Shown one piece after another: positions 47,661-64,000 of a stretch of DNA of 64,000 bases; the first letter of the stretch is position 1, and every line of letters begins with the position of its first letter. Both the position numbers and the translations under genes were made by a program. Source of the stretch: an uncultured Cohaesibacter sp. (GTDB lineage: Bacteria > Pseudomonadota > Alphaproteobacteria > Rhizobiales > Cohaesibacteraceae); NCBI RefSeq assembly GCF_963676275.1, contig NZ_OY781091.1, forward strand, positions 1,900,775 through 1,964,774, written 5' to 3'. Below the pieces are notes generated by a model that was given only the letters and a program-made list of their open reading frames with translations, ran no database searches and had not been told where the DNA came from.

Positions 47661-47662
47661 TC

Positions 47663-48565: not shown

Positions 48566-48569
48566 CAGG

Positions 48570-49424
48570 ATGCAACAGATGAATTCCGACACCATTCTAT
48601 CGGTCGAGAATCTGTCGATCCGATATCGCGGCACCCCGGCAGATGCGGTGCGCAATGTGAGTTTCAATCTCGGCAAGGAACGACTTGGCATCGTCGGCGA
48701 GAGCGGCTCGGGCAAATCCACGGTCGGTCGCGCCTTGCTCAAGCTGCTGCCAACGGCGGACATCAAGGCCGACCGCATGCAGTTTCGTGATATCGATCTG
48801 CTCAACACACCGGAAAGGGAAATGCTCAAGGTTCGCGGCAAGCGGATTTCCATGATCCTGCAAGACCCGAAATTCTCGCTCAATCCGATCCTAAAATGCG
48901 GTCCGCAGGTGGCCGAGGCTTACAGCAATCATATGCGTTGCAGCAAGCGGGAGGCAAAAGAGCGGACCCTGACCATGCTGGAAGCCGTGCAGATCCGCGA
49001 TCCCGAACGGGTCTACGGGCTTTATCCGCACGAGGTTTCCGGCGGCATGGGGCAGCGTATCATGATTGCCATGATGCTGCTCACCGATCCCGATGTCGTG
49101 ATCGCAGATGAGCCGACGTCGGCGCTCGACGTTACGGTTCGCCTTCAGGTGCTTGATATTCTCGACGCCTTGGTGCGCGACAAGGGCATTGGCCTGATCA
49201 TGATTTCGCACGATCTCAATCTGGTGCGCAATTTCTGCGACCGCGTGCTGATCATGTATGCCGGGCAGGTGGTGGAATCGCTCAATGCCAGCGAAATGCA
49301 TATGGCCCAGCATCCCTATACCAAGGGACTTCTGGCCGCCCAGCCCCATATTGGCGGTCCGCGCCAGCCTTTGCCAGTGCTCGAACGGCGCTCCGAATGG
49401 CTTGAAGATGTGAAGGTAGTCTGA
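48570..49424 (+). CDS. Peptide-type ABC transporter ATPase (DppD-like)
   Basis: A 284-residue ATPase. Walker A is GESGSGKST, the signature VSGGMGQRIMIAMML, Walker B VVIADEPTSALDVTV, and the H-loop ISHDLNLVRNFCDR. The peptide-importer C-terminal HPYTKGLLAAQP is present, but the Cys-rich iron-sulfur motif of some OppD/DppD proteins is not. Ile-Met in the signature replaces the usual Val-Ala, a minor oddity. GGAGG precedes ATG 48570. The stop overlaps the next gene by one base. Confidence 0.93.
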   Translation: MQQMNSDTILSVENLSIRYRGTPADAVRNVSFNLGKERLGIVGESGSGKSTVGRALLKLLPTADIKADRMQFRDIDLLNTPEREMLKVRGKRISMILQDPKFSLNPILKCGPQVAEAYSNHMRCSKREAKERTLTMLEAVQIRDPERVYGLYPHEVSGGMGQRIMIAMMLLTDPDVVIADEPTSALDVTVRLQVLDILDALVRDKGIGLIMISHDLNLVRNFCDRVLIMYAGQVVESLNASEMHMAQHPYTKGLLAAQPHIGGPRQPLPVLERRSEWLEDVKVV

Positions 49425-50173
49425 TGAAACCAATTTCGATTGAATCTCTCAGAATCAAGCTTGGTTCTGCGCTCATCCTGCCCGATGTCAGTTTTGACGT
49501 GAAGGCGGGGGAATGCTTTGGTCTTGTCGGCGAAAGCGGCTCGGGCAAGTCGACCGTTCTGCGCTGCATGTCCTTGCTCTTCAATTCATGGAGCGGCACC
49601 ATTCGCATCGATGGAAAATCCGTGCGTGAGATGAGCCCGTTTGAACGCTGCCGAACATTCCAGATGGTGTTTCAGGATCCCTACGGTTCTCTTCATCCGC
49701 GCCACTCTGTGCGTACAACATTATCCGAGCCGTTGAAGATCCACAAGCTCGACAACCACATCGAGCGCATGGAGCAGGCGCTGATTGATGTGGGCCTGCC
49801 GGTTGATTTTCTCGATCGCTATCCGCATCAGCTTTCGGGCGGACAGCGGCAGAGGGTCGCCATCGCACGGTCTCTCATTCTTGATCCGGATATTCTGCTG
49901 CTTGATGAACCAACCTCGGCGCTGGATGTTTCCGTTCAGGCCGAGATCCTCAATCTGCTGGTGCGGTTGCGTGAAGAAAAGGGCTTCACCTATATTATCG
50001 TCAGTCATGATCTGGCCGTCGTCGACCATATGTGTGACCGTTTCGCGGTGATGCAGGGCGGACAGATTGTCGAAATTCTGCCGCGGGAGGCCATTCCCGG
50101 TAATGATGCCAGCATGCCCTATGCCCGCGAGCTGATCGGAGCGAGCCTCAAATATGAGCGGACCGTGGAATAA
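49424..50173 (+). CDS. Peptide-type ABC transporter ATPase (DppF-like)
   Basis: A 249-residue ATPase, the second of the pair. Walker A is GESGSGKST, FQDPYGSLHPRHSV is the DppF/OppF hallmark, the signature LSGGQRQRVAIARSL, Walker B ILLLDEPTSALDVSVQ, and the H-loop VSHDLAVVDHMCDR. It is short for DppF because the usual C-terminal extension is largely missing. Last gene of the unit, followed by a strong terminator. Confidence 0.93.
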   Translation: MKPISIESLRIKLGSALILPDVSFDVKAGECFGLVGESGSGKSTVLRCMSLLFNSWSGTIRIDGKSVREMSPFERCRTFQMVFQDPYGSLHPRHSVRTTLSEPLKIHKLDNHIERMEQALIDVGLPVDFLDRYPHQLSGGQRQRVAIARSLILDPDILLLDEPTSALDVSVQAEILNLLVRLREEKGFTYIIVSHDLAVVDHMCDRFAVMQGGQIVEILPREAIPGNDASMPYARELIGASLKYERTVE

Positions 50174-50202: not shown

Positions 50203-50235
50203 AAAAGGCCCTTGCCTTTGGCAGGGGCCTTTTTA
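50203..50235. terminator. Bidirectional Rho-independent terminator
   Basis: A 14-bp stem, AAAAGGCCCTTGCC with GGCAGGGGCCTTTT (one G-U), around a TTT loop. A-rich on the left and T-rich on the right, it can serve both the ABC operon and the convergent DUF2332 gene, whose stop codon overlaps its right edge. Confidence 0.92.
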
Positions 50236-51219
50236 TGGGCGGTTTTCCGTCATTTGCGAGAGGGAACCGATCCAGTCCACGCTTTGCCCATGTGGGCCAG
50301 TCCAGGCCAGCGCCTCTCCATTTCGAGTGAGGAGAAAGCGGCCCGCTCCGTCAGATACAAGCCCGGACGAGAATTGCGGAAAGACACGGGGCGACTCATT
50401 GCAAAGCCAAACCGCATCCGACGCCATCATCTGACGGGCGAAGGCGTCACGCTGTGATTGCTCCCCAACATAGCTCAAAACCGCAGTATGGAAGACAACC
50501 AGCCGCGCGTCCTTCGGGGCTTCTTCGATCAAAGCGGGCAGATCCTTCAAAAGATTTCCCTCAAAGACGGGTGGCTTTTGTTGACGCGCGATAATCAATG
50601 CCTGCTTCAGCCTTTCAAGGCGATCTTCATGCTCTGGCCAGACAAGCGCTTGCAGCCAGTTGACATCCTCCTCCTTTGATATGTCCAGCGGATTGAGATC
50701 CAGTCCCGCGCGCCAGACAATGTCCGGGTGACGCATGGGGCGCGGAGTGTTCTGGGTGGCCTTGCAGGGAAAGACCGGCGCGGATTGGCCGAAGGCCTCA
50801 GGCGCTGCAAGGCGATGAGAGGTCCAGTCATATCCATAGCAATCGGGCAGCAGGCAAAGCCCGGCTGAAGCTCCAACCTCGATCAGTGCAATCGGACCTT
50901 CCAGTTGGCAAAGCGCGGGCATCAGGGCCGCACAACGGCCCGGCTCGTTGGTTTGCGTGGTTCGCGAGAGCATGATTGCAGCGATGGCTTCCTGATGCTG
51001 GTCAAGCATGGCCTCCAGCATGTCCCCAGACGTGGGAAGCCCGGCGGCCATGCGAACCGCTGCGAAAAGAAGATTGGGCTGCTGTCTTTCCTCAGGCAAT
51101 CGGGCCAGAAAGGAAAGGCATGGCGGCGAGTTGGCGATGTGAAGGGCGAGCTTTTCATAAAGTGGCGAGCGACCGGCAGCCTCGCTTCGGGCAAATCTCT
51201 CATATCGTTCGGCAATCAT
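50233..51219 (-). CDS. DUF2332 family protein
   Basis: A 328-residue cytoplasmic protein that fits DUF2332. Recognisable stretches are RYERFARSEAAGRSPLYEKLALHIANS near the start, the SAM-binding-like glycine motif LIEVGASAGLCLLPDCYGYDW in the middle, and WRAGLDLNPLDI later. The fold looks like a Rossmann methyltransferase, but no activity is known to me. Convergent with the ABC operon; linkage to it may be incidental. Confidence 0.8.
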   Translation of the reverse strand: MIAERYERFARSEAAGRSPLYEKLALHIANSPPCLSFLARLPEERQQPNLLFAAVRMAAGLPTSGDMLEAMLDQHQEAIAAIMLSRTTQTNEPGRCAALMPALCQLEGPIALIEVGASAGLCLLPDCYGYDWTSHRLAAPEAFGQSAPVFPCKATQNTPRPMRHPDIVWRAGLDLNPLDISKEEDVNWLQALVWPEHEDRLERLKQALIIARQQKPPVFEGNLLKDLPALIEEAPKDARLVVFHTAVLSYVGEQSQRDAFARQMMASDAVWLCNESPRVFPQFSSGLVSDGAGRFLLTRNGEALAWTGPHGQSVDWIGSLSQMTENRP

Positions 51220-51397: not shown

Positions 51398-53008
51398 CTA
51401 TTGAGATTTGGTGACATTCTCGAAACGGCAAACCCATGGATCGACGATCACATTCTTGACATTCGCCTGATAGGCCGCAGTAACAACGCGTTCGGAGAAT
51501 GGCTGAATGGACGGAATGATCTCCTTGTCCATCTTGACCTGTACCTCCTTGTAGAATGCGCTCTGTTTTTCCTGATCAGGTTCAACCAGAGCCTTTTCGA
51601 TAATATCGTTCAGCTCTTCGCTGAAGAAGCTGGTGCGCCAACCCTGATAGTTGGTGAGCTTTGCTTCGTCGGCATTGTCCGGATTATAGACCAGCGCCCT
51701 GAGGTTGCTGTCCGGATGCGGGAACTGGCCACCACCGCCGCGCCCAACCAGCAACTCGAATTCGCGATTGCGCATTGCGCCATAAATCTGGCTGCCGCCA
51801 CCGGTGATGATTTCCGCATTGATGCCAGCCTGCGCCAGAGTGGACTGGATCGCCGTGGCGGAATCGAGGAACTGCTGGGTCGAGATCACGCGGATGGTGG
51901 TGTCAAAGCCATCAGGATAACCAGCCTCGGCAAGCAGCGCCTTGGCCTTCTCGATATTCAGCTCATAGCCGGGATCTTCCATGGCCGAGAAGGCACCGGA
52001 ATTGATCGGGCGCTGCCGTTTGACGCCGAAGAAGGGCATGATGGTCGCATTGATGCCATCATAGTCGATCATGTAGCGCAGGGCTTCACGCACCTTCGGA
52101 TTGGCAAAGCGCTCGTCTTTCATGGAGACGGCAAGATAGTAGAAACCGGCGCTTGGCACCGTGGTGATGGTCAGATCGGATTTTTCCTTGAGGGCCTTGA
52201 GATCGGCAGCCGCAAGAGAGAAACCGACATCCAGATCGCCCTGTTCAAGGCCGAGGCGCTGGGTCTGGGATTCCGGCAGATGGCGCATCAGCACGCGCTT
52301 CATTTCCGGTGCACCGCCCCAGAAATTGTCATTGCGCCCGAGGATGACATATTCATTCGCACGCCATTTTGTCAGCGAAAAAGCGCCCGATCCGGCCGAA
52401 TTGTTGGTCAGCCAATCCTTGCCCATGTCGCCATCCTTCTCGTGGCTCATGACAAGTTTGGAATCAAGAATGGAGCCTGGGCCGGCCTGCGTCAGCACCA
52501 TGATGATGAGCTTGGGGTCATCCTGTTGGGGCAATGTCAGAACAAAGGTATGCTCGTCCTTGGCGACGAAATATTTGTCGACATCTTCCGATGTGAAACC
52601 ACGTGATTTCAGATAGGAAGCCTGTGCCAGATTGAGGGTCAGCAGACGCTTGAAGCTGAAGGCCACATCTTCCGCCGTGACCGGATTGCCTGATGCGAAT
52701 TTGGCATCCTGACGCAGCTTGAAGGTAACGGACATATTGTCCGGTGCAATCTCCCAGCTCTCGGCAAGGCGAGGCTTGAGCTGACGGCTTTCCGGGTCAA
52801 GCTGCGCAAGGCTGTCATAGACATTGTTCAGGATCTGAACAGCTTCGCCTCCTGTGATCGCTGCGGGATCCATCGTCAGCACATTATTCATGTTGAATGC
52901 AACAATGAGCTGGTCTTTTGGCGTTTCTGCCAGCGCGGCAGAATTGAAGCTTGCGGTGCCAGCCAGAAGCATGGCGCTGAAAGCAACGGTAGCGAGTAGT
53001 TTTTTCAT
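51398..53008 (-). CDS. Family-5 extracellular binding protein (peptide/opine type)
   Basis: A 536-residue exported binding protein with signal peptide MKKLLATVAFSAMLLAG... cleaved near SAALA-ETP (residue 27). The mature protein is a DppA/OppA-type ligand trap (LTMDPAAITGGEAVQILNNVYDSL, VTFKLRQDAKFASGNPVTAEDVAFSFKR, VREALRYMIDYDGIN). GGAGG precedes the ATG at 53008. It is the natural partner of the permease/ATPase set at 46638-50173, from which it is separated by the DUF2332 gene and inverted. An NTGTnnnACAN site lies 57 bases upstream. Ligand unknown; family members bind peptides, opines, nickel, glycosides or others. Confidence 0.92.
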   Translation of the reverse strand: MKKLLATVAFSAMLLAGTASFNSAALAETPKDQLIVAFNMNNVLTMDPAAITGGEAVQILNNVYDSLAQLDPESRQLKPRLAESWEIAPDNMSVTFKLRQDAKFASGNPVTAEDVAFSFKRLLTLNLAQASYLKSRGFTSEDVDKYFVAKDEHTFVLTLPQQDDPKLIIMVLTQAGPGSILDSKLVMSHEKDGDMGKDWLTNNSAGSGAFSLTKWRANEYVILGRNDNFWGGAPEMKRVLMRHLPESQTQRLGLEQGDLDVGFSLAAADLKALKEKSDLTITTVPSAGFYYLAVSMKDERFANPKVREALRYMIDYDGINATIMPFFGVKRQRPINSGAFSAMEDPGYELNIEKAKALLAEAGYPDGFDTTIRVISTQQFLDSATAIQSTLAQAGINAEIITGGGSQIYGAMRNREFELLVGRGGGGQFPHPDSNLRALVYNPDNADEAKLTNYQGWRTSFFSEELNDIIEKALVEPDQEKQSAFYKEVQVKMDKEIIPSIQPFSERVVTAAYQANVKNVIVDPWVCRFENVTKSQ

Positions 53009-53064
53009 GTTTCCTCCCAATAGTAACCATGAATTACTCATGCTCTGTACGACCGGTTGGATAT

Positions 53065-53075
53065 GTGTCTGACAA
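53065..53075. promoter_or_regulatory. Probable FCD-GntR operator before the binding protein gene
   Basis: GTGTCTGACAA keeps the TGT-N3-ACA core of the sites at 46555 and 54462; with its left flank it matches the 46553 site at 10 of 12 bases. It lies 57-67 bases before the binding-protein start. Confidence 0.45.
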
Positions 53076-53117
53076 TTACTGCAAGACAATAGACAGGGCC
53101 ATACAAGAAACCGGATG

Positions 53118-53164
53118 CAGAAACCTCTTCTCCTCCATTAGGTGATCTTCCCGCGAGGTTTCTG
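53118..53164. other. Inverted repeat between enolase and binding-protein genes
   Basis: CAGAAACCTC and GAGGTTTCTG form perfect 10-bp arms with a 27-base loop, downstream of the enolase-family gene and upstream of the binding-protein gene on the same strand. No T run follows. It could be an intercistronic stabiliser, a weak terminator or a protein site. Confidence 0.5.
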
Positions 53165-53230
53165 GCTCACCCCTGTTCGGGGGCGAAAAGATCGGGGAGG
53201 GGCGGCGACAGGCAACCCCTCCAAGCGCAT

Positions 53231-54379
53231 TTATCGAACGCGATTATTCTCGATGAAATCGAGGTCAATATCCTCTCCAAGTCCGGGACGATCGGGCACA
53301 TGCACCAGACCATTCTCGTCCATCGGATCGGAAAGCGACTTAAGATAGTCAAAGCCGTCATCATATTCGAGGAAAGGATGCAGCAGGCCGCGCTCATACC
53401 AGCGGCAATTTTTCGAGGCTGCGACCACATGCAGATTCATCGCCGTATTGCCATGCACTTCGCAATTCATGCCGAAGCATTCAGCCATCCGCATGGTCTT
53501 GATGGCAGGCGTGATGCCGCCGACGTCATTGACGCCGGTGCGCAGGATATCGCAAGCACCAAACCGGACCCATTCGGCCCGATGCCAATGCTTGCCAGCG
53601 GCGCTTTCGGGTCCCAGAACCGGAATGTCGAGATTCTCACTCAGCCATTTGTAGGAAGACAGGGACTGCTCATCGAGCGGCTCCTCGATCCAGTCGAAGC
53701 CGAGTTTTTCCAGTCCGCGTCCAAGCGCAAGGGCGTCGGTGCGGGAATACCAGTGGAAGGCATCGATCATCAGGCTGATATCCGGCCCGACCGCCTCGCG
53801 CACAGCAGCGCAGGCTTTCAGATCCATCTTGACGTCCGGTGCCCAGCTGACCGGTGGCATCCATGTATGCAGCTTGATGCCCTTATAGCCGCGCTTAACC
53901 AGCGTTTCGGCGAAATTGGCATAATCCTCGGGCGTGGCGAGACCACCCTCCAATTCGTCCCCGCACATGATGGAGCCATAAGCCGGCATCGTATCGCGAT
54001 AGCCGCCGAGCAACTTGTAGACAGGCTGGTTCAGCACTCTGCCAGCCAGATCCCACAGGGCACAATCGACCACTGCGAGGGTTCTGTCTGTCAGCTGGGC
54101 GGCTGAACCACGCTGCCAGTGTGCCAGATCATGCCAGAGCCGTTCGCGATCACGATGGTCCTGACCGATCAGAACCTTCTTGACGAATTTCTCCAACACA
54201 TGCGGGCGGACGATTTCCGGGGGACAAAAGGAGTAGCCTTTGTGGCCGTCTTCGGTGCTGATTGCCAGCATGGCCTGCTGAACCTGATGCGCTGGGCCGG
54301 GATGTCCATGACCGGCGCTGTCTGAATGGCGGCGTGTGGTGGTCAAAAAGACCGTGGCTGAGACATCGGTTATAATCAT
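53231..54379 (-). CDS. Mandelate racemase/muconate lactonizing (enolase superfamily) enzyme
   Basis: A 382-residue enolase-superfamily enzyme that should abstract the proton alpha to a carboxylate. Metal ligands are Asp206 (MIDAFHW), Glu232 (WIEEPLDE) and Glu258 (LGPES). Lys169/His171 in GIKLHTW and His309 in CEVHGNT are the candidate acid/base residues, placing it in the mandelate-racemase subgroup (racemases and acid-sugar dehydratases). GGAAGG precedes the ATG at 54379. It is encoded beside the regulator and the binding protein, so its substrate is probably related to the imported compound. A GGAGGGG/CCCCTCC hairpin just past the stop may terminate it. Confidence 0.9.
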   Translation of the reverse strand: MIITDVSATVFLTTTRRHSDSAGHGHPGPAHQVQQAMLAISTEDGHKGYSFCPPEIVRPHVLEKFVKKVLIGQDHRDRERLWHDLAHWQRGSAAQLTDRTLAVVDCALWDLAGRVLNQPVYKLLGGYRDTMPAYGSIMCGDELEGGLATPEDYANFAETLVKRGYKGIKLHTWMPPVSWAPDVKMDLKACAAVREAVGPDISLMIDAFHWYSRTDALALGRGLEKLGFDWIEEPLDEQSLSSYKWLSENLDIPVLGPESAAGKHWHRAEWVRFGACDILRTGVNDVGGITPAIKTMRMAECFGMNCEVHGNTAMNLHVVAASKNCRWYERGLLHPFLEYDDGFDYLKSLSDPMDENGLVHVPDRPGLGEDIDLDFIENNRVR

Positions 54380-54420
54380 ATTGAAAGACCTTCCCATAGC
54401 CCAGTGGGGCCATTATTCTA

Positions 54421-54474
54421 TATGACATATTGTTACGGAGAATTTGCGCGCTCGTCAATATTTGTCATACAGAT
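54421..54474. promoter_or_regulatory. Probable FCD-GntR operator region before the enolase-family gene
   Basis: TTGTCATACAG at 54462-54472 carries the TTGT-N3-ACAG arms; extended, it equals the minus-strand form of the site at 46553. A second TATGACA copy lies at 54421-54427 in inverted orientation, 42 bases away (twice 21). Both lie upstream of the enolase-family start and may also act on the regulator gene. Confidence 0.55.
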
Positions 54475-54924
54475 TATTTAAATTGTTCATATAGGTTTTG
54501 CCTGCTATATTGGTTGCAGAATAAAAATTGCGGATTTTGGCCAATTTGATTGAATTCATGAAGCGCAATATGGTTGCCGAATTGCACTAGCTGGGGGCTG
54601 GTAAGGCTCAGGCGAGGTTTTGACCGGCTTAAGAAGGCATAGGAATGAGCCGGTTAGAGCGTGCGGTTCTGTTGAATCTGGCGAAAAATATGATAAATAG
54701 TCATATTGATTGCAAATCAGGCATACAAATAAAGTGCCAGCTCTGCACTGCGTGGTCCGCAGATAGCATATATCGCGCGGCTGATGCTGCCAGTGGATCG
54801 CATGGTGCAACTGCCAGCATATTGATGGCGAATGGAATGACGGTCAGCCTGCAAATGGGAAGCACATGCCCTTGAAGCATATGTGATCGGACCAGAGCTG
54901 GACTGACCAGGGGAAAGGCAGACA
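54475..54924. other. Intergenic region upstream of the GntR gene
   Basis: About 450 bases with no credible gene. It contains an AATATGA/TCATATT inverted repeat with 7-base centre (54687-54707), a possible autoregulatory site of the GntR protein. Small frames here lack ribosome sites. Confidence 0.5.
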
Positions 54925-55680
54925 ATGGAAGCAGGACTTTCAGAGACCAGACAGAATAATGGCAAGGCCCAGACATTGGTCAGTCAGATCAGTGATCACC
55001 TGAGGCGCGAGATTGCAACGGCGAAATATGTGCCCGGCGATCGGCTGCCCAGCGAGGCAGAACTTGGGCGACGTTTCGAGGTCAGCCGTACTGTCGTCAG
55101 GGAAGCCATTGCCATTCTGCGCTCTGATGGTCTGGTCGAGGCGCGCAAGGGGGCCGGTGTCTTCATTCTTGATCCGCGCGAGGCGAGGCAGAAGCATCCC
55201 TTCGCCGATCTGTCATCGGACCGCATTTCCGAGGTGATCGAGTTGCTTGAAATGCGCTCCGCCTTTGAAATCCGCTCGGCCAGTCTGGCCGCAGCCCGGC
55301 GGTCATCAGCCCAACTTGAGAATATTCTCAAGGCCCACGCCGTGGTTGGTGAAGCCATGGTGGCCGAAGAATGGCCCTATGAAGCGGATTTCCAGTTTCA
55401 TTACGAGATCGCCGTCGCCACCCAGAACAAGAGATTTCCGCAATTTCTTGCCATGATCCGGCCCGGCATCATTCCGCGCAAGGATCTCTCGGTCGGCAAT
55501 GACCGCCGCAAGATCCATCCGAACCCGCACCTGCATCGCGAGCATGCGATTATTTTGCAGGCAATTGTCGATGGCGACTCCGAGGCCGCTGAAGCCGCAA
55601 TGAAAACCCATCTCGAAGGTGCCCTCTCGCGCTACAGGAACATGCTGCGGGAAAGCCTGACGAGCGACATCTCGGCCTAG
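54925..55680 (+). CDS. GntR-family regulator, FadR/FCD subfamily
   Basis: A 251-residue regulator. The winged helix is at about residues 17-80 (LVSQISDHLRREIATAKYVPGDRLPSEAELGRRFEVSRTVVREAIAILRSDGLVEARKGAGVFI), followed by an FCD all-helical effector domain (VIELLEMRSAFEIRSASLAAARR; DFQFHYEIAVATQN, whose Asp and His usually ligate a metal). These proteins respond to small carboxylates such as sugar acids, amino acids or lactate. It is divergent from the enolase gene and convergent with the long catabolic operon, the only regulator in the locus, and the likely reader of the NTGTnnnACAN sites. Confidence 0.92.
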   Translation: MEAGLSETRQNNGKAQTLVSQISDHLRREIATAKYVPGDRLPSEAELGRRFEVSRTVVREAIAILRSDGLVEARKGAGVFILDPREARQKHPFADLSSDRISEVIELLEMRSAFEIRSASLAAARRSSAQLENILKAHAVVGEAMVAEEWPYEADFQFHYEIAVATQNKRFPQFLAMIRPGIIPRKDLSVGNDRRKIHPNPHLHREHAIILQAIVDGDSEAAEAAMKTHLEGALSRYRNMLRESLTSDISA

Positions 55681-55735
55681 ACTGGTTGTCGGCTGTCCGG
55701 TGGTTATGTCCGGTGGCTATAGCGATCAAATAAGA

Positions 55736-55767
55736 ACAGCCCCGAATTGTCATCACTTCGGGGCTGT
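55736..55767. terminator. Hairpin terminator between GntR gene and SDR gene
   Basis: ACAGCCCCGAA pairs with TTCGGGGCTGT (11 bp) around a 10-nt loop between two convergent genes. The plus-strand tail is modestly T-rich; it probably terminates both. Confidence 0.75.
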
Positions 55768-55809
55768 GTCATTTTATCATTTGCCCCGATCAGGGCGAGG
55801 GGCAGGGGC

Positions 55810-56580
55810 TTACATACCCTTGATCATGCCACCGTCAACGCGGAGCATGGAGCCGGTGACGAAACTGGCCTGCTCCGAGCACAGGAAGGTCACCACCGCA
55901 CCGAATTCTTCCGGTTTGCCATAACGTCCTGCCGGAATGGTCGCGCGGGATGCAGCCTTCACATCTTCAACCGACTGACCGCTTTTCTTTGCCTTGCCCG
56001 CATCCAGTTCGGCCACGCGATCGGTAGCGATGCGGCCGGGCAGAACCATATTGACGGTGATACCGCTGGAGGCCACTTCGCTGGCCAAGGTCTTGGACCA
56101 GCCCGCAATGGCGCCGCGCACCCCGTTGGACAGCGCCAGATTGGGGATCGGGTTGACGATACCGGACGAACCGATGGTCACAACGCGGCCCCAGCCTTTT
56201 GCCGTCATGGCCTCAAGTGCCTTGTCGGTGATGGCAAAAATCGGTGTCGCCATGGCGTCAAAGGCAGCCTGCCAGGCGGCCACGCTTTGCCCCTTGGCCG
56301 GACCGGCTGCAGGTCCACCGCAGTTATTGACCAATATGTCCACCGGTTCCTTGTCCAGCAGTGCGATCACCTCATTGACTGAGGCCGCATCGGCCAGATC
56401 AAGCTTGACCGCGCTCACCCTGTCCTTGAGACCATCGGGCAATCCCGCTGGCAGCGTGCCCGAGCGTGATGCGGCAACAACCTGCGCTCCTTCTTCGGCC
56501 AGCAAAATGGCAGAAGCGGCACCCAGACCGCGACTTGCGCCCAGTACGAGCGCACGTTTTCCTTTCAAACCGAAATCCAT
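55810..56580 (-). CDS. SDR-family protein with altered catalytic residues
   Basis: A 256-residue short-chain dehydrogenase/reductase-fold protein. The NAD(P) motif GASRGLG (14-20) and NNCGG (85-89) are present, as is Ser138 in IGSSG. But where Tyr-xxx-Lys should follow, the sequence is LALSNGVRGAIAG: Ser151 replaces Tyr and Arg155 replaces Lys. A subgroup of SDRs annotated as 3-oxoacyl reductases shares this LSN..R pattern, and its activity is unclear. The start overlaps the upstream DapA-family stop by one base (TGATG). Last gene of the minus-strand operon. Confidence 0.88.
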   Translation of the reverse strand: MDFGLKGKRALVLGASRGLGAASAILLAEEGAQVVAASRSGTLPAGLPDGLKDRVSAVKLDLADAASVNEVIALLDKEPVDILVNNCGGPAAGPAKGQSVAAWQAAFDAMATPIFAITDKALEAMTAKGWGRVVTIGSSGIVNPIPNLALSNGVRGAIAGWSKTLASEVASSGITVNMVLPGRIATDRVAELDAGKAKKSGQSVEDVKAASRATIPAGRYGKPEEFGAVVTFLCSEQASFVTGSMLRVDGGMIKGM

Positions 56581-57506
56581 CAGCCAAGCTCCTTCAATCT
56601 TTTTTCCTGCCGAGCGATGATGCGATCAACCTCGACCTTTGCGGCAGCGGTCAGTCCCTTGCCCGGTTTGCGCATGGCTTCCGAGGCGATGACGCCGCGT
56701 TTCTGCAAGACATATTTGCGAACAGCAAGGCCAAGACCCGGCTGTTGTTCGTAGCATACCAGAGGGAGATAGGCATCATAAACATCCTGTGCGCGATCCA
56801 GCTCGCCTTTCTCGGCAAATGCGACCACGTCTCTGAGCATTTCGATATAGGCAAAGCCGGTCATCGCGCCATTTGCACCGCGTGCCATGGCTTCGGGCAG
56901 GAAGAGCGCACCGTTACCGCAAAGAATGGAGATCGGACGACGCCCGGCCTTCTCGGCTGCGCGCACGGCGGTGACTTTTTCAAGGCCCGGCCAGTCTTCA
57001 TGCTTGAGCATGACGATCTGCTCATTCTGCTCGATGATGCTGCCCAGAGTATCGGTGGAGATATTGACGCCGGTTGTCAGCGGGAAGTCCTGCAGGACCA
57101 CAGGCACGCCAGCACCAGCCGCGTCACAGGCATTGGCATAATAGGTGATGATCTGCTCATTGGTCTTCAGGTTGCCCGGAGGGGCAATCATGACCCCGGC
57201 AGCACCCAGATCCATTGCCTTTTTGGACAATTCGCCAATGGCCGCGAGACCCGGCGCGGAAACGCCGACCACAATCGGGGCACCATTGGCGCGCTTGATC
57301 ACGCGTTCGGCGATGGTGACCGCTTCGGCCTGCGTCATCTTGGGGGCTTCCCCCATCATGCCAAGCACGGTGATGCCGGTCGAACCCTTTTCCAGATAGA
57401 AATCGGTTGCGCGATCCAGACTATCGAAATCTATGGCACCCTGTTCGTTGAATGGTGTTACCGAAATGGCGAAAACACCCTTGGTGTCACTGGTGAGCAG
57501 CGTCAT
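56580..57506 (-). CDS. DapA-family (dihydrodipicolinate synthase/NAL-like) lyase
   Basis: A 308-residue class I aldolase-fold protein. The Schiff-base Lys168 lies in MLKHEDWPG. The usual GTTGE is GMMGE (near 49-53), and the YNxP tyrosine is replaced: the sequence reads VVLQDFPLTTG. It is therefore unlikely to be lysine-biosynthetic DapA and more likely to retro-aldolise or dehydrate a 2-oxo acid in the linked pathway. AAGGA precedes ATG 57506; the frame extends 10 codons more. 19 bases separate it from the upstream M24 gene. Confidence 0.88.
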   Translation of the reverse strand: MTLLTSDTKGVFAISVTPFNEQGAIDFDSLDRATDFYLEKGSTGITVLGMMGEAPKMTQAEAVTIAERVIKRANGAPIVVGVSAPGLAAIGELSKKAMDLGAAGVMIAPPGNLKTNEQIITYYANACDAAGAGVPVVLQDFPLTTGVNISTDTLGSIIEQNEQIVMLKHEDWPGLEKVTAVRAAEKAGRRPISILCGNGALFLPEAMARGANGAMTGFAYIEMLRDVVAFAEKGELDRAQDVYDAYLPLVCYEQQPGLGLAVRKYVLQKRGVIASEAMRKPGKGLTAAAKVEVDRIIARQEKRLKELG

Positions 57507-57525
57507 GTTCAGTCCTTTCTGACCA

Positions 57526-58656
57526 TTATTTGACAAAGAGCTTGCGGGGGAAATTGGTCAGTCTTTCATAGCCCGATTCGGTAATGGCGATGGTCTCGGA
57601 CATGCCGTATCCACTCGCCAGAAGGTAGGTGTGGAAGGTTTGACCCGGCTCGAAAGACCAAGTGCAGCTTGGTTCTGCCTCCAGTGGTTCGCCGCCATTG
57701 GGCTGAAGCAGAAGGCCGACAGAATAGAATGTCTTGTTGGTGTAGGTTTCGCGCAGGCCAGCCGAGAGGATACCATCGCGATAGATGCTGTCTGGCACCG
57801 TCGCCGCAACGCCCGGGCGCACTTCGGCAAGGGCGGCATCCTGAATGGCGATCAGCTTTTCAACGATTCTGTGATCGTCATCACGGGCCGGAGCAATGCG
57901 GATCGGGCGCATGAAACGGGCGTGATAATGGCGCACATTCGGTGTCACCTCAATCTGCACGATATCGCCTTCTTCCAGAATGCGGTCCGAATAGCCACCA
58001 TGCAGATGGAAGGCGCGTTCGCCCGAAGACATCACGCCCGGGCCGGGCAGGTCGGAACCGGCGCGGATCATGGCGGCGCAGATCTGGGCTGCCATTTCCC
58101 GCTCGCTGACACCAACTTCCGAGGCGTCAATCGCCGCCTGCATGCCTGCTTCGGCGGCCTTGGCTGCGCGGCGCTGATAGGCGATCTCGGCCGGTGTCTT
58201 GATCAGGCGCATGGTTGGCGCCATGTTGCTTTCATCCTGCCAACTGATGCCCGGAAGCGTGGATTTGAGATATTCGAACCGTCCGGCCGAGAGCGGCCAT
58301 GCCGAAAGCTCGATACCCAGTTTGGCGCTTGCGCCCATACGGCTGCGTATCGCTTCGGCTGCCACCTTCATCCGGTCGTCGCTATCCGTCCACATGACAC
58401 GGTCGGCAAAGACGCATGTGCTGTCGAGATAATATTCCTCGACATCGCGGCAAAAGAGGGTGGGCTCACCACTGGCCGGAATGATGGCAAACTGCAAGGT
58501 GCCATAGGCGCGGGTGAAATAGCCGGTAACCCAGGTAACCGTCTCCGGCAAAAAGGCAATTAGCCCATCCAGATCCCGTTTCTTTAATTCAGCCTGTATG
58601 CGTGACAGGCGGGCGAGATATTCCTCGCGCTCAAACCAATAAGCTGGTGTTGGCAT
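57526..58656 (-). CDS. M24-family (creatinase/aminopeptidase P-like) hydrolase, metal ligands missing
   Basis: A 376-residue pita-bread-fold protein with a creatinase-type N-terminal domain (about 1-150) and a C-terminal M24 domain. The canonical metal-site pattern GDxVxxDxG...GYxxDxTRT reads GDIVQIEVTPNVRHYHARFMR: Glu236 and Arg247 replace the two Asp ligands, and the later His and Glu positions (GLLLQPNG, QTFHTYLL) are also changed. A metal-free mechanism, as in creatinase or ectoine-hydrolase-like members, is therefore more likely than Xaa-Pro peptidase activity. AAGGAG precedes ATG 58656. The substrate is probably a small C-N compound. Confidence 0.88.
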   Translation of the reverse strand: MPTPAYWFEREEYLARLSRIQAELKKRDLDGLIAFLPETVTWVTGYFTRAYGTLQFAIIPASGEPTLFCRDVEEYYLDSTCVFADRVMWTDSDDRMKVAAEAIRSRMGASAKLGIELSAWPLSAGRFEYLKSTLPGISWQDESNMAPTMRLIKTPAEIAYQRRAAKAAEAGMQAAIDASEVGVSEREMAAQICAAMIRAGSDLPGPGVMSSGERAFHLHGGYSDRILEEGDIVQIEVTPNVRHYHARFMRPIRIAPARDDDHRIVEKLIAIQDAALAEVRPGVAATVPDSIYRDGILSAGLRETYTNKTFYSVGLLLQPNGGEPLEAEPSCTWSFEPGQTFHTYLLASGYGMSETIAITESGYERLTNFPRKLFVK

Positions 58657-58732
58657 TTCTATTCTCCTTGAGAAAGTCCGCGCATGGGCCATGCCGGATG
58701 CGAAGGCTTTTCTCAAAATCATGCAGGAAAGG

Positions 58733-58750
58733 GCCCCGAACGAGCGGGGC
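58733..58750 (-). terminator. Intra-operon hairpin after the amidotransferase gene
   Basis: On the minus strand GCCCCG pairs with CGGGGC around CTCGTT and is followed by CCTTTCC, 29 bases past the amidotransferase stop. Perhaps partial termination or an RNA-processing site in the 122-base gap before the M24 gene. Confidence 0.45.
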
Positions 58751-58778
58751 TGGTCAAATAGGTTGATTGAGCAGACCC

Positions 58779-59480
58779 TCAGCCATGAAGAACAAGTTCT
58801 GTAAAACGGGTCAGCATGGTCTTGGCTTCATCGGCTTCATGGGCGGAGGCTTTCAGTTCCTCGATATCGGCACCGTCCTTCTCCATGGTTTTCCGGTTCT
58901 GCTCGAACCAGAGAGGAGCCTGCGCCAGCGTGACTTCAGGATGGCCCTGAATGCCCCAGATATCTTCATCCTTGTAGCGCCAGACATGATTGGCGCAATC
59001 ATCCGAATAGGCCAGAATGGTCATGTCCGGATGGGAACCGAGCACCTCGTCATTATGCCAGACAAACATATGCACCGTTTCATGCAGATCCTTGGCAATC
59101 TTGTCCGTGCGGGCCGCCTCGGTCACCGGCAAATCCTTGTAGCCGATCTCGCAGCTGGTGCGCCGGAAAACCTGATCCTTGCCACAGAGGGCAGAAGCCA
59201 GAATCTGATGTCCGAAACAGACGCCGAGCATCGGGATTTTCAGTTCCGCAGCCTGCCGGATCAGGTCATGTTCGCGATGGATGAAGTCGATATCCTCATA
59301 AGCACCATGCGGGCTGCCGGACAGGAAGATGCCGTCATAGCCATCAAGCGTCAGTGGGAACTGGCCGTCATAGGCCCAGAAGCGATCGACATTGAGGCCC
59401 CATGTTTCAAACCGGTCATCGAGTTTGGCAACAGACTGCAAGGAGCGGCCATTGCCCAGATAGAGAAGTCTTTTCCCCAT
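58779..59480 (-). CDS. Stand-alone class I glutamine amidotransferase-like protein
   Basis: A 233-residue GATase1-fold protein. The nucleophile is Cys88 in GVCFGHQILA, with the His-Glu dyad in GIQGHPEV. GIFLSGSPHGAYEDIDF is the oxyanion-strand region. No synthetase domain is fused or adjacent, as in GuaA-like stand-alone amidotransferases and gamma-glutamyl hydrolases. In this operon it may hydrolyse a gamma-glutamyl or other amide; that is inference. Flanked by an intercistronic hairpin on each side. Confidence 0.88.
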   Translation of the reverse strand: MGKRLLYLGNGRSLQSVAKLDDRFETWGLNVDRFWAYDGQFPLTLDGYDGIFLSGSPHGAYEDIDFIHREHDLIRQAAELKIPMLGVCFGHQILASALCGKDQVFRRTSCEIGYKDLPVTEAARTDKIAKDLHETVHMFVWHNDEVLGSHPDMTILAYSDDCANHVWRYKDEDIWGIQGHPEVTLAQAPLWFEQNRKTMEKDGADIEELKASAHEADEAKTMLTRFTELVLHG

Positions 59481-59514
59481 GTCAGAGGATATTCCTTTTG
59501 TTATGGCAGGGCTT

Positions 59515-59538
59515 GCCTGAGCCTGTAACGGCTCGGGC
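59515..59538 (-). other. Intra-operon hairpin after the second M24 gene
   Basis: GCCTGAGCC pairs with GGCTCGGGC (9 bp, one G-U) around a 6-nt loop in the 87-base gap between the M24-like gene and the amidotransferase gene. No T run; probably a message-stability element. Confidence 0.45.
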
Positions 59539-59567
59539 AGTCCTTGCTCTCAATAGCGGTGTCTGGC

Positions 59568-60785
59568 TCAGCAGCGGAACAGCTCGATGGGCAGATCGGA
59601 GAAGACCTCCGGCTCGCCATTTTCGCGAATGGCGAAGGTCTGGCCGATACCGGCAACAAGGCCCGTATCCGTGTCAGGGATCATGATATGGACAAAGAAC
59701 ACCATACCCGGCTGCATCACGAGCGGATTGCCCGAATAGATCATCGGCGGCACATCCATCCATGTCGGCTTGAAGGTGCAACCCAGCGCATAGCCGCAGG
59801 CCGCATAGCGGGCCTTGGCAAAGCCGCCCTTGTCCAGCACCCGGCGGTGAATGTCGTCCAGCGTGCCAAGCTCGCGGCCGGGCAGGGCATTGGCCTTGAT
59901 TTCCTCGATCGCATCGCGCGCGACGCCCATCTGGCGCTCCTGTCGCGGATCGACCGGGCCGAGGGTCAGGGTATTTTCAATGCAGACATGATAGCGGCAA
60001 TGGGACCCTGCCAGCTCCACCAGCACCTGATCTTGTTCCTCGATGATATGGGCAATGCCGGAATCCCTGCCGAACAGAGCCGCCGCGCCCGCATTGATCA
60101 TCGGTCCACCAGAAGGGGTGTCACCGCCACGGGTGACCATCGCGTCAAAGGCTGCACCGATCAGGGCGCTGTCGGGGATGCCCGGCTTGACGCGTTCGAT
60201 GGTGGCACGCACCGCTGCGTCGGCCAGTTTACCGGCAATGCGCACATGCTCCAGCTCTGCCGGAGACTTGATCAGGCGCAGGCCACGAATGATCCATGAG
60301 CCGTCAGCGGTTTCGCAGAAACCTTCAAGAGCCTTGTCGACCATTTTGCCATGAAAGGCCGTGAGACCATAGCTGGCATATTCGATGCCGACCTTTTTGC
60401 CTTTGAGGCCCTTTTCTTCCAGAATCCCGCGCAAATCCATGGCAGGGTTGGCATCCTCGGCATTCAGCCAGATGCGGACCTCGTCATAGAGCGAGGCCAC
60501 CTCGGCCTGCCGCTTGTCCGGTGTACGGGTGAGGATCACAGTCGGGCTTTCATCGGCGGTGATCACTCCTGCCTGAAAGAAGACAAAACCCGCCGTATCA
60601 AAGCCGGTCAGCCAATAGTGGCTTTCCTGTGAAAAGACGAGAAGGGCGTCGAGCCCTTCCTCGCGCATCCGCTTGCGGGCCGCAGCCAGACGGGCAGCAT
60701 ATTCCTCTGGCGGAAATCTGAGCAGGACATCGCGCCCTGCCGGGGTTTTTGCCTTATATTCCTTTGGCACAAACATTTCTGTCAC
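59568..60785 (-). CDS. M24-family creatinase-like hydrolase (second copy)
   Basis: A 405-residue protein with the two-domain creatinase layout (N-terminal domain to about 165, then the pita-bread fold). The metal-binding segment reads VELAGSHCRYHVCIENTLTLG, lacking both Asp ligands. Later positions are GYALGCTFKPTWMD and MVFFVHIMIPD where His and Glu ligands would be. It most resembles metal-independent members such as creatinase and ectoine-hydrolase-like proteins. Start GTG 60785 has GGAG eight bases upstream and lies five bases after the upstream stop; ATG 60776 is an alternative. Confidence 0.85.
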   Translation of the reverse strand: MTEMFVPKEYKAKTPAGRDVLLRFPPEEYAARLAAARKRMREEGLDALLVFSQESHYWLTGFDTAGFVFFQAGVITADESPTVILTRTPDKRQAEVASLYDEVRIWLNAEDANPAMDLRGILEEKGLKGKKVGIEYASYGLTAFHGKMVDKALEGFCETADGSWIIRGLRLIKSPAELEHVRIAGKLADAAVRATIERVKPGIPDSALIGAAFDAMVTRGGDTPSGGPMINAGAAALFGRDSGIAHIIEEQDQVLVELAGSHCRYHVCIENTLTLGPVDPRQERQMGVARDAIEEIKANALPGRELGTLDDIHRRVLDKGGFAKARYAACGYALGCTFKPTWMDVPPMIYSGNPLVMQPGMVFFVHIMIPDTDTGLVAGIGQTFAIRENGEPEVFSDLPIELFRC

Positions 60786-60790
60786 GTGAC

Positions 60791-62011
60791 TTACTCCATC
60801 TCGCAAATATCGGCCATGGTCATCAGATAGACGCGGATCATGTCGAGATAATCGACAATCTCTACGCGCTCATCCGGCATGGTATTGAATTTTCCACCCG
60901 GTCCGCAGACGACGCCTTCCATGCCGCCGACGGCCCAGAGATGTCCGGCATCGGTGCCGAAATAGGCTGGCGGGGCAATCGCGCCGGTTGGCTGCTCCTC
61001 ACCGCGCACGGCCTTGTAGGCTGCGTTGAGTGCTGTGACGATGCGGGCATCCTTGGCCACTTCAAAGGCGGGCATGGTCGGCTGGCCCTTGCGCGTTTCC
61101 GGCGTAACGGTTGCCTTGAGGCCGGGAAAGCGGGCCTCAAGCTCGTCAAGCTTTCTGCGCATGTCCATGACAGCATTATCGCGGCTCTGTCCGGGGCCAT
61201 AACGGCCCGATCCCTTGATGCGGACATAATCGGCCACCTGCGGCGGGCGCCATTCATGCAGATCCTTGCCAAGCGCCCCATGGACCACGCCCACATGCAC
61301 CCGGTTGACCGAGCGATGCTCCTCGGAAGGCGCATCCGAGAAGGTCATTTCGTTAAGCTCGGGAATAAGGGCACAGGCCGCCATGATGGCATCAACCCCG
61401 GCTTCGCGCTTGGAGAGATGGCGGGTGATGCCTTCCAGCTCGATAGTAAAGGTGAAGGCGGCCGCATGCATGGTGATGGCTTGCAGATCTGACGGTTCGG
61501 AATTGATGAAATAATCCGCTCGCAGACCGGAATTGACTGCAGCCAGCGTACCGATCCCGCCCTGCAATTCGCCAATCACATAGGTGAGAATGACGTCACC
61601 CTTGAGCCGCTTGCCATTGTCTATGAGGGTCTTGACCGCGCACAGCGAAGCCATGTCACCGGCCTTCATGTTCGAGACGCCGATGCCATAGATGAATTCG
61701 TCATCGACCAGCCCGCCCCATGGATCGACCGTCCAGCCTTCGGTGACCGGGTTGGTATCAAGATGGCCGTTGAACAGCAGGCTCTTGCCACCACCCGTGC
61801 CGCGCCAACGCCCGATGGCGTTGACACGGTCGCCCACCACAGGCATCAGTTCCACTTCCAGCCCCATCTTTTCCATGATCGAGGCGACATGTTCGGCGAG
61901 CTTGCGCTCACCTTCGGTTTCCGAATAGCTCTTGTGGCTGACAATGTCGGACAGGATATCCAGACAGGCTTTGCTGTCGAGATTCTGCGTCAGGCTGAGG
62001 GCATCAGACAT
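60791..62011 (-). CDS. M20-family peptidase/deacylase-like protein with altered metal site
   Basis: A 406-residue protein of the M20 (ArgE/DapE/CPG2) family. The first ligand His83 and Asp85 are in NGHLDTNPV, and the catalytic Glu148 is in VIGELQGGIGT. But the bridging Asp is Asn114 (VSNMKAG), the second Glu is Leu149, and the C-terminal His is Asn376 (GPGGKFNTMPDE). Glu172 (SEPSD) and dimer-domain His198 are retained. A normal two-zinc site looks impossible, so it may be a one-metal enzyme or have another role. The ATG overlaps the upstream ATPase gene by eight bases. Confidence 0.88.
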   Translation of the reverse strand: MSDALSLTQNLDSKACLDILSDIVSHKSYSETEGERKLAEHVASIMEKMGLEVELMPVVGDRVNAIGRWRGTGGGKSLLFNGHLDTNPVTEGWTVDPWGGLVDDEFIYGIGVSNMKAGDMASLCAVKTLIDNGKRLKGDVILTYVIGELQGGIGTLAAVNSGLRADYFINSEPSDLQAITMHAAAFTFTIELEGITRHLSKREAGVDAIMAACALIPELNEMTFSDAPSEEHRSVNRVHVGVVHGALGKDLHEWRPPQVADYVRIKGSGRYGPGQSRDNAVMDMRRKLDELEARFPGLKATVTPETRKGQPTMPAFEVAKDARIVTALNAAYKAVRGEEQPTGAIAPPAYFGTDAGHLWAVGGMEGVVCGPGGKFNTMPDERVEIVDYLDMIRVYLMTMADICEME

Positions 62012-63716
62012 TTTCTTGTTCCGTTTCATATGCATTGAGCGAAACCTGAACGGGCACAGCGTCGAGTAGGGCTCTGGTGTAAGAATGGCGATCTTCAGCA
62101 TCGGCTGCGTCGCGATCAAACAGATCGACCAGCTTGCCATGCTGCATCACTGCGATACGATGGGCGATCTGTCGGATCAGATTGAGATCATGAGTGATGA
62201 AGATACAGGCCGTGCCGGTATCCTTTTGCAGCTTGACCAGCAGTTCGGTCACCGAAGCCTGAACGGATACGTCCAGCGCGGCCGTCACCTCATCGCAGAT
62301 CACCAGATCCGGTTCGGCCGCAAAGGCGCGGGCAATGGCAACGCGCTGCTTCTCGCCGCCGGAAAGCTGATGCGGATAACGGTCTGCATAATCGGCAGGC
62401 AAACGCACCAGTTCAAGCAGTTCGCCAATCCGTGCCTTGATCTGATCGGCGGGGACAACATCATAAAGATGCAGCGGGCGCGATAGGATCGTTCCGATGG
62501 TCTGGCGCGGATTGAGCGAAGCATCGGGATGCTGGAAAACAATCTGCATCTTGCGGCGATAGTTGCGCGTAATCTGCTTGCGGCCAGAAATCTCGATGTC
62601 ACCGAATTTCACCGTACCGGAGAAATCATTAAGCCCCGTCAGGGCCTTGGCGATTGTCGATTTGCCCGAGCCACTTTCGCCAACGACCCCGAGCAATTCA
62701 CCCGGACGGACCGAAAGCGAAACATCCTTGGCCCCCCAGAAGATATCCTTCTCATCGGGTTCGACCTTGAACAGCTTTTCCTTGAGGGACTGTGGCGAAT
62801 AGCGGACGCAGACCTTGTCGAGCGAGAGCAGAGGCTCTGTCTTGTCCGGTTTGGCCACACCAAGCCAGCGATCCGGATGCGGCACAGCACCGATCAGACG
62901 CTTGGTATAGTCATGTTGCGGATTGTTGAAGACCGCATCAACCGTACCATGTTCGACCAGATCGCCATGATGCAGCACAGAGACCTTGTCGGCAATGCGG
63001 GAAACCAGCCCCAGATCATGGGAGATATAGAGCGCGGAAACCTTCGTTTCTTCCCGCAGGCGGTTGAACAGATCGAGGATCTGGCGTGCCGTGAGAATAT
63101 CGAGCGCCGTTGTCGGCTCGTCGAAAATGATCAGTTCCGGCTCGCAGGCAAAGGCTGTGGCGATGACCACGCGCTGCTTCTCGCCGCCCGATGCTTCATG
63201 CGGATAGCGCCCGAGCATTTCTCTGGGGCGTGTGATGCCGGTGCGGGCCAGAGCCGCCTCGGCTTCTTGGCGTGCCTGCGCCTTGCTGAGACCGCGATGG
63301 GCCATCAACACTTCGGTAATCTGGTCACCGATCCGCATGGTCGGATTGAGCGAGGTGGACGGATCCTGAAAGACCATCGAAATGCGCTGACCGCGAATAT
63401 CGATCATCTGTTTTGGCGACATTTCCAGCAGTTCCTGCCCGGCCAGACGGATCGCCCCATGGGTCTCGATGGCGTTGCTTGGCAGATAGCGCATGATCGA
63501 CCAGGCCATGGAGGATTTGCCCGAGCCGCTTTCGCCCACAAGACCATGGGTCTCGCCTGCGGCAATTTCCAGATTGATATTGCTGAGCGCTTTGACAGGT
63601 CCGTTGCTGGTTGCATAGGAAAGCGAATAGTTCCTGATGGCGAGGCGAGGGGCTTTGGCATCAAAAATGGCCGCCTTCTGCCGCGCCGGATGGGTGTTGA
63701 CATGAGATGCTGACAT
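62004..63716 (-). CDS. Fused two-domain peptide-type ABC transporter ATPase
   Basis: A 570-residue protein joining DppD- and DppF-like ATPases. Each half has Walker A GESGSGKSS/GESGSGKST, a signature (ASGGEKQRVVIATAF and [15 protein letters not shown]), Walker B (LIIFDEPTTALD and LVICDEVTAALD) and an H-loop (ISHDLGLVSR and ITHDLNLIRQ). The Val in the second Walker B (DEVTAALD) is unusual but conservative. It follows the permease gene with a TGATG overlap (ATG 63716). The binding protein and first permease of this system lie beyond the window edge. Confidence 0.95.
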   Translation of the reverse strand: MSASHVNTHPARQKAAIFDAKAPRLAIRNYSLSYATSNGPVKALSNINLEIAAGETHGLVGESGSGKSSMAWSIMRYLPSNAIETHGAIRLAGQELLEMSPKQMIDIRGQRISMVFQDPSTSLNPTMRIGDQITEVLMAHRGLSKAQARQEAEAALARTGITRPREMLGRYPHEASGGEKQRVVIATAFACEPELIIFDEPTTALDILTARQILDLFNRLREETKVSALYISHDLGLVSRIADKVSVLHHGDLVEHGTVDAVFNNPQHDYTKRLIGAVPHPDRWLGVAKPDKTEPLLSLDKVCVRYSPQSLKEKLFKVEPDEKDIFWGAKDVSLSVRPGELLGVVGESGSGKSTIAKALTGLNDFSGTVKFGDIEISGRKQITRNYRRKMQIVFQHPDASLNPRQTIGTILSRPLHLYDVVPADQIKARIGELLELVRLPADYADRYPHQLSGGEKQRVAIARAFAAEPDLVICDEVTAALDVSVQASVTELLVKLQKDTGTACIFITHDLNLIRQIAHRIAVMQHGKLVDLFDRDAADAEDRHSYTRALLDAVPVQVSLNAYETEQENV

Positions 63717-64000
63717 CAATGGCTCCTTCTGGGGTCAAGGCTGTCGCGCAAGGCATCGCCAAACAGGTTGAAACCAAGGGCTGACATGGCAATGAAAATG
63801 CCGGGAATGGCCACGCACCATGGATTGCGGAACATGAACTGACGGGCTTCGGCAACCATCAGTCCCCATTCGGTGCTGGGAGGCTGGGCGCCAAGGCCGA
63901 GAAAGCCGAGCGTTGCGCCGATCATGATGGCAAAGGATACGCGGATGGTGGATTCCACGATGATCGGGCCGAGCGCATTGGGAAGCACTTCGCGCACAAC
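63716..64000 (-). CDS. Peptide-type ABC transporter permease (DppC-like), partial
   Basis: The C-terminal 94 residues of a DppC/OppC-family permease, truncated by the end of the window. The EAA-loop end (LPNALGPIIVESTIRVSFAIMIGATLGFLGLGAQPPSTEWGLMVAEAR) and the last helix ending GFNLFGDALRDSLDPRR are characteristic. The stop overlaps the ATPase start. Pairs with the fused ATPase downstream. Confidence 0.93.
   Translation of the reverse strand, partial: VVREVLPNALGPIIVESTIRVSFAIMIGATLGFLGLGAQPPSTEWGLMVAEARQFMFRNPWCVAIPGIFIAMSALGFNLFGDALRDSLDPRRSH

Follow-up and report, generated by a model that had tools for sequence, protein, structure and literature searches.

A conserved Cohaesibacter operon of M20-, M24- and DapA-type proteins with altered active sites and a candidate operator

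What does an operon do when the enzyme-like proteins it encodes depart from the canonical residues of their families? The question is raised by the window analysed here, a stretch of 64,000 nucleotides from the genome of an uncultured Cohaesibacter sp. (contig NZ_OY781091.1, positions 1,900,775 to 1,964,774), in which a minus-strand operon (55810-63719) encodes the ATPase of a peptide-type ABC importer together with M20-, M24- and DapA-family proteins, a lone amidotransferase-like protein and an SDR. A sequence-only reading had described hydrolase-fold proteins that lost their catalytic residues, and had proposed a dedicated pathway for an amide-bearing, creatine- or ectoine-like solute. The system is real and selected and appears to be co-regulated and catabolic, and sequence comparisons suggest that the altered active sites are conserved subfamily signatures rather than lost catalysis, some of the relatives being named enzymes. 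We tentatively propose, with somewhat less than even confidence, a substrate-induced catabolic regulon that would take up and hydrolyse a solute bearing an amide, lactam or amidine group, perhaps in gamma-glutamyl linkage, and lead to glutamate. Literature searches, with subscription papers outside their reach, found no paper on this operon.

Layout, distribution and selection of the operon

The list of open reading frames (ORFs) and the Pfam matches bore out the minus-strand operon with all the genes named earlier, and indicate that it extends upstream past the window end. There, in the host genome (5.03 Mb, single contig; locus L018), two permeases, a family-5 binding protein (SBP1) and a third M24 protein (M24c) are encoded; after M24c follow a divergent FCD-GntR gene (GntR2), an N-carbamoyl/allantoate-type M20 (M20b) and then PxpC, PxpB and PxpA. 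The order of transcription is M24c, SBP1, the two permeases, a fused double ATPase of the Opp/Dpp type (62004-63719; Pfam ABC_tran twice and oligo_HPY), the M20-family protein M20a (60791-62011; Peptidase_M20), M24a (59568-60776), the class I glutamine amidotransferase-like cysteine hydrolase GAT (58779-59480), M24b (57526-58656), the DHDPS-superfamily protein DAPA (56580-57506) and the SDR (55810-56580). Neighbours overlap or are separated by no more than about 120 bases, according to the ORF list with starts chosen by us. The importer subunits are ordinary in appearance by Pfam; PxpB and PxpA exceed their curated cut-offs, and PxpC exceeds the TIGR00724 domain cut-off and lies under its equivalog cut-off (240.6 of 500 bits).

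Purifying selection acts on the 13 genes tested, and the operon is not decaying: in 26 comparisons with C. haloalkalitolerans and C. marisflavi, the ratio of non-synonymous to synonymous substitution rates (dN/dS) was 0.027-0.088, the ratios being rough, with dS above 1 in several comparisons. The same two species provide the best named matches to M20a (97% and 94%, respectively).

The expectation of conserved synteny held, since the gene set recurs in other genomes. M20a was found in 9 of the 385 genomes of an even sample of the class, the host included, and one collection scan returned 552 M20a relatives among its candidates. Eighty loci were typed, 35 as type 1 and 42 as type 2, with 3 unclassified; the counts are limited by contig ends or the 10-kb flank and were not taken from ORF clustering, which is contaminated by antisense ORFs. 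The ATPase and M20a genes are same-strand neighbours in 77 of the 80 loci. In type 1, M20a and M24a are adjacent in 29 of 35 loci and M24c and SBP1 in 28; M20b occurs in 25 loci, GntR2 in 23, a D-2-hydroxyacid dehydrogenase in 21, PxpB in 18, DAPA in 17 (four of them on the opposite strand, at 42-45% identity), GAT and M24b in 8 each, and the SDR in 4. Type 2 loci have another M20, of the ArgE/DapE type, before SBP1 (36 of 42) and an M24 gene directly after M20a (23 of 42). GAT and M24b are confined to the same 8 of the 80 loci and to the same 2 of the 385 class genomes; in the second of these genomes, GAT, M24b and DAPA lie within 4.2 kb.

The distribution is patchy yet wide, with scattered relatives that include rhizobia. 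At E ≤ 1e-60, M20a is present on 61 plasmid records from sources including sea water, soil and root nodules; 38 of them belong to Rhizobium, Neorhizobium or Agrobacterium, some from tumour or grapevine. These records, together with the ArgE/DapE-type M20 before SBP1 in type 2, favour a role in the catabolism of opines or N-acyl amino acids of plants or plant-associated bacteria, in which the type 2 operons of Agrobacterium and Rhizobium plasmids would be the core and type 1 an elaboration. We regard this as improbable: M20a is also found in Cohaesibacter, Rhodobacteraceae and Bosea and on 13 Pantoea plasmids, and no gene annotated as opine-related stands beside the operon in the regions read. 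Type 2 operons on plant-associated plasmids include those of Agrobacterium vitis (L108), Neorhizobium sp. NCHU2750 (L122) and Rhizobium tumorigenes (L123), which contain a GntR gene, another M20, an Opp-type importer and M20a; in L108 and L122, M20a is followed by an M24 or peptidase gene.

Altered active sites and their solved relatives

In M20a (numbering starts with the Met at 62011 and is one higher than in the tool outputs), the bridging Asp is replaced by Asn114, the second Glu by Leu149 and the terminal His by Thr377. The first two replacements agree with the sequence-only reading, which had placed the third at Asn376, one residue earlier. All three residues are invariant in 83 of 83 orthologues, as are Glu148, His83, Asp85 and Glu172; these orthologues come from the 80 loci (best of the 552 relatives) and from L107, L108 and L112, and since the 80 loci were found with search patterns containing the first His and Asp, the invariance of both is partly by construction. 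Among the 18 M20 matches of the genome the altered residues are unique to M20a, the other 17 keeping His and Glu at both aligned positions.

By residue alignment, M20a departs from the canonical two-metal M20 pattern (bridging Asp, second Glu, terminal His) and agrees with that of 5-nitroanthranilate aminohydrolase (PDB code 5K8M, M20 fold), with Asn at the bridging position and neither a second Glu nor a terminal His; the operon represents a second group with this residue pattern. Both proteins have the His, the Asp, the Asn in place of the bridging Asp, the Glu with an aliphatic residue after it (Ile in 5K8M, Leu149 in M20a), the later Glu, an Arg before the dimer-domain His position and no aligned terminal His. 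They differ in the residue after the Arg (His in M20a, Tyr in 5K8M), their overall similarity is low (profile E 9e-20), and, in contrast to the aminohydrolase, no aromatic pathway genes were found among the operon genes scanned. According to PMC10306065, the 5K8M enzyme takes off an amino group by hydrolysis.

The sequence-only reading had noted that the two M24 proteins of the window lack the Asp metal ligands; the change goes further. An alignment to Pyrococcus furiosus prolidase, whose metal ligands are D209, D220, H284, E313 and E327, indicated that all five positions are altered in M24a, M24b and M24c: D209 is replaced by Glu, D220 by Cys, Arg or Lys and H284 by Tyr, with no Glu at E313 and E327. 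The ectoine hydrolase DoeA and the EutD of locus L107 have Glu, Pro, Tyr, Met and Thr at these positions, and the Glu at the first-Asp position and the Tyr at the His position are invariant in all 23 aligned M24 sequences. At the five ligand positions, the three proteins agree with the pattern of metal-free M24 proteins of the DoeA/creatinase-like kind. Among solved structures, M24a (E 2.4e-30) and M24b (E 1.7e-26) are closest to DoeA; the M24 fold, the Glu, the Tyr and the loss of D220, E313 and E327 are common to DoeA/EutD (PDB codes 6TWJ and 6TWK) and all three proteins. The first His, which has a role in creatinase, is present in M24b, DoeA and the aligned type 2 M24 proteins, whereas M24a and M24c have Arg in its place and G-Q or G-H at the last-Glu region; they represent an M24 subfamily marked by this Arg. 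In a tree of 45 rows (every third M24a and M24c locus, M24b at 45% identity or more, one third of the type 2 rows), M24a, M24b, M24c and the type 2 proteins each form one clade, and M24a and M24c fall within one 100/100 group together with a further M24 of the host genome; the tree carries long-branch warnings.

PMC5924519 states that DoeA turns ectoine over, and variant ectoine or hydroxyectoine catabolism, with the M24 proteins as ectoine hydrolases, was weighed as the main explanation. The relationship to DoeA, the ligand replacements, alike in kind, and the lack of any match in the whole host genome that reaches the ectoine hydrolase cut-off speak for it. Nevertheless, M24a, M24b and M24c themselves reach 116-138 bits, far below the 613 bits required by TIGR02993, no AstE-type deacetylase (EutE/DoeB) or MocR-type regulator was found among the operon genes scanned, and the DoeA/EutD systems have other operon partners and another type of importer and regulator. 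Furthermore, Rhizobium sp. SSA_523 (L107) possesses this operon and, about 5 kb past the DapA gene, a separate set of a DoeA-clade M24, an AstE-family and an ornithine-cyclodeaminase-family gene. On these scores, partners and the separate set, this explanation was rejected as the main one and is considered very improbable; the operon itself is probably not one of ectoine catabolism. A 2026 survey of ectoine clusters (PMC13188858) describes tentative clusters with two eutD homologues in Thermodesulfobacteriota and, in the parts read, makes no mention of this gene set.

It seems quite unlikely that M20a, M24a and M24c lack catalytic activity and, as pseudoenzymes, bind the solute or form the scaffold of a complex, leaving the chemistry to GAT, M24b and M20b. 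The only partly kept two-metal site of M20a would fit such a role, as would the Arg and the G-Q or G-H of M24a and M24c, but the four residues kept in M20a are as invariant as the replaced ones, within the limit stated above for His and Asp, and 5K8M, with the same residue pattern, is named as an enzyme.

The triad of GAT (Cys88, His180, Glu182) is intact in 10 of 10 orthologues, so the description of proteins without canonical residues holds for the M20, M24 and DapA-type proteins and the SDR and fails for GAT. Its nearest solved relative is gamma-glutamyl peptidase 1 (PDB code 9K7I), which, like PuuD, combines the class I glutamine amidotransferase fold with Cys-His-Glu; GAT is under the cut-off in all 20 of its NCBIfam matches. 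A relative of M24b occurs on three other plasmids, in other operons, near a gene annotated as gamma-glutamyl-gamma-aminobutyrate (GABA) hydrolase; one such hydrolase gene was nearest to PuuD, yet under the PuuD cut-off. This neighbourhood is the main ground on which a gamma-glutamyl-type amide is proposed. Among similar operons elsewhere, one is without the hydrolase gene and another has a GAT relative instead.

DAPA, as the sequence-only reading had said, is without the YNxP tyrosine: the motif is Gln-Asp-Phe-Pro, and QD(F/Y)P and Lys168 are present in 18 of 18 orthologues. QDxP likewise replaces YNxP in 3DZ1, the nearest solved relative (E 4e-102), and in L-2-keto-3-deoxyarabonate dehydratase (PDB code 7C0C); the latter is distant (E 8e-28), and the former is named merely dihydrodipicolinate synthase in the table consulted. 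Alignment likewise upheld Ser151 and Arg155 in place of Tyr and Lys in the SDR; both are retained in 4 of 5 homologues, the fifth having Asp, Tyr and Lys at columns 151, 152 and 155, and both are common to the solved relatives 2Z1N and 5VPS. The idea of lost catalysis is thus weakened, because the sets of substitutions are conserved and have counterparts in solved relatives, including the named enzymes DoeA, 5-nitroanthranilate aminohydrolase and L-2-keto-3-deoxyarabonate dehydratase.

The public annotation of the operon genes is as peptidases (for the M24 genes, Xaa-Pro or M24 peptidases), metallo-hydrolases and acetylornithine deacetylase, names that the residues speak against. The M24 annotation, the Opp-type importer, the M24 and M20 folds and the encoded 5-oxoprolinase would suit ordinary oligopeptide scavenging, with Xaa-Pro or pyroglutamyl peptides as possible substrates. 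This is unlikely in view of the five altered prolidase positions and the residues of one metal site missing from M20a; a keto-acid-lyase-type protein and an SDR are also a poor match to plain peptide hydrolysis.

A candidate operator and the proposed pathway

The exact palindrome TGGTATACCA occurs at 25 sites in the 34 loci that have M24a or M24c and at none in the 49 loci that have neither, and all 25 sites fall outside matched genes. In 20 loci it separates GntR2 from M24c; in L039, L040, L055 and L107 it precedes GAT, and in L028 it precedes pxpA. In L055 and L107 the site is between divergent GAT and pxpA. When ten loci were searched with one mismatch allowed, GAT had a site in L037, pxpA in L027 and L046, and M24c in L033, L034, L037 and L046. 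The exact palindrome is absent from the host genome, where the pattern TGGTATACCG (form TGGTATACC[A/G]) occurs at 4 places: in the intergenic regions M24c/GntR2 and PxpB/PxpA (L018:7159-7168 and 11215-11224; G000:C1:1969158-1969167 and 1973214-1973223), inside a long ORF and upstream of a binding-protein-like ORF. A reversed control pattern is commoner in the host, with 27 places, and by raw count TGGTATACCA is the 25th of 1024 palindromic 10-mers, the top ones being GC-rich; the argument for an operator relies on the placement of the palindrome and on its absence from the 49 loci without M24a or M24c. A looser regular expression matched 20 of 25 promoter regions (4.4 expected by shuffling) and did not match the host promoter, and the generic GntR consensus TNGTNNNACNA was uninformative in the window, with 6 matches against 5.5 expected. 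In the host genome, the operator was not found at the M24c-like gene L134 or at the TRAP-linked cluster L133.

The palindrome, shared here or in relatives by the operon promoter, the GAT-M24b unit and the 5-oxoprolinase genes, suggests one regulon; GntR2, encoded outside the window, is likely to be the regulator of the operon and would presumably bind the palindrome. PxpA and PxpB surpass the curated cut-offs as in the known PxpABC system; here, they stand beside a solute operon with the same candidate operator. The shortness of this operator makes the regulon and its inducer directly testable. In the M24b-type operons of three plasmids (L109, L111 and L126), near position 7113, TGGAATACCA, one mismatch from the operator, lies between two divergent GntR genes that head an ABC operon.

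In the proposed pathway, for which we infer both the substrate class and the order of reactions, the Opp-type importer would take up a solute that resembles a peptide and carries a cyclic amidine, a lactam or an N-substituted amide. The M24 proteins would cleave a C-N bond without metal, as is thought for ectoine hydrolase; M20a would hydrolyse with a mononuclear metal site, in the manner of 5-nitroanthranilate aminohydrolase, GAT could cut off a gamma-glutamyl or similar amide, and M20b may strip a carbamoyl group. The DapA-type protein and the SDR would work on the carbon skeleton, and the Pxp proteins would convert 5-oxoproline to glutamate. A bolder version is conceivable and fairly unlikely: M24a and M24c, as related metal-free proteins of the pita-bread fold, would form one hetero-oligomer with the mononuclear M20, catalysing a C-N cleavage new to both families, and the gamma-glutamyl or lactam part would reach glutamate via 5-oxoprolinase. 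The earlier suggestion of a dedicated pathway for an amide-bearing, creatine- or ectoine-like solute is thus retained in part: the recurrence of the set, purifying selection, the apparently common operator and the nearness of the M24 proteins to DoeA agree with it, while its premise of lost catalysis is weaker, and two adjoining genes fall outside the set (see below).

Several observations weigh against the proposed catabolic regulon. Both operon-associated sites of the host differ from TGGTATACCA by one mismatch. Even with up to one mismatch, the search returned no site at GAT in L041 and L046 or at M24c in L041, L069, L084, L092 and L093; in L041, L069, L084 and L092 none turned up anywhere, and in L093 solely inside DAPA. 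In the other eight class genomes with M20a, the importer adjoins it in five, is missing in L024 and L025 and is cut off by a contig end in L026. Among the 35 type 1 loci, pxpA is present in 6 and pxpC in 3, partly since the loci end there, and the Cohaesibacter operons showed no sign of the D-2-hydroxyacid dehydrogenase that accompanies 21 of these loci. Among solved structures, the M20a profile matches an ordinary DapE best (7UOI, E 3e-25, vs 9e-20 for 5K8M), and the support of 95/88 that joins M20a and 5K8M in the tree comes with a long-branch warning. Finally, M24a and M24c, with Arg replacing the first His, may not share the chemistry of DoeA.

Neighbouring genes and clusters

The mandelate-racemase-type gene and the FCD-GntR regulator said to adjoin the operon are both real genes, and neither is conserved with it. 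The former encodes an enolase-superfamily enzyme (53231-54379, minus strand; nearest solved relatives 1RVK and 4HCD); the latter (54925-55680, plus strand; Pfam) is divergent from it and is not the conserved regulator of the operon. In the 80 related loci, each has a single weak match (25% in L031 for the enolase-family gene, 29% in L038 for the GntR gene), and neither was seen in the two Cohaesibacter loci, which were covered to about 5 kb beyond the SDR; both were rejected as members of the operon.

The enolase-superfamily gene, nearest to 1RVK, and a gene for a family-5 binding protein (51398-54379, minus strand) look like a separate uptake unit together with two Opp-type permease genes and two ABC ATPase genes (46617-50173, plus strand). 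An uncharacterised DUF2332 protein is encoded between both groups of transport genes (50233-51219). Elsewhere in the host genome, L133:4613-10937 (G000:C1, about 1568600-1574900) contains a second PxpABC, a D-2-hydroxyacid dehydrogenase, a carbamoylase-like M20 and a DoeA-like M24, adjoining TRAP transporter genes and two GntR-like genes.

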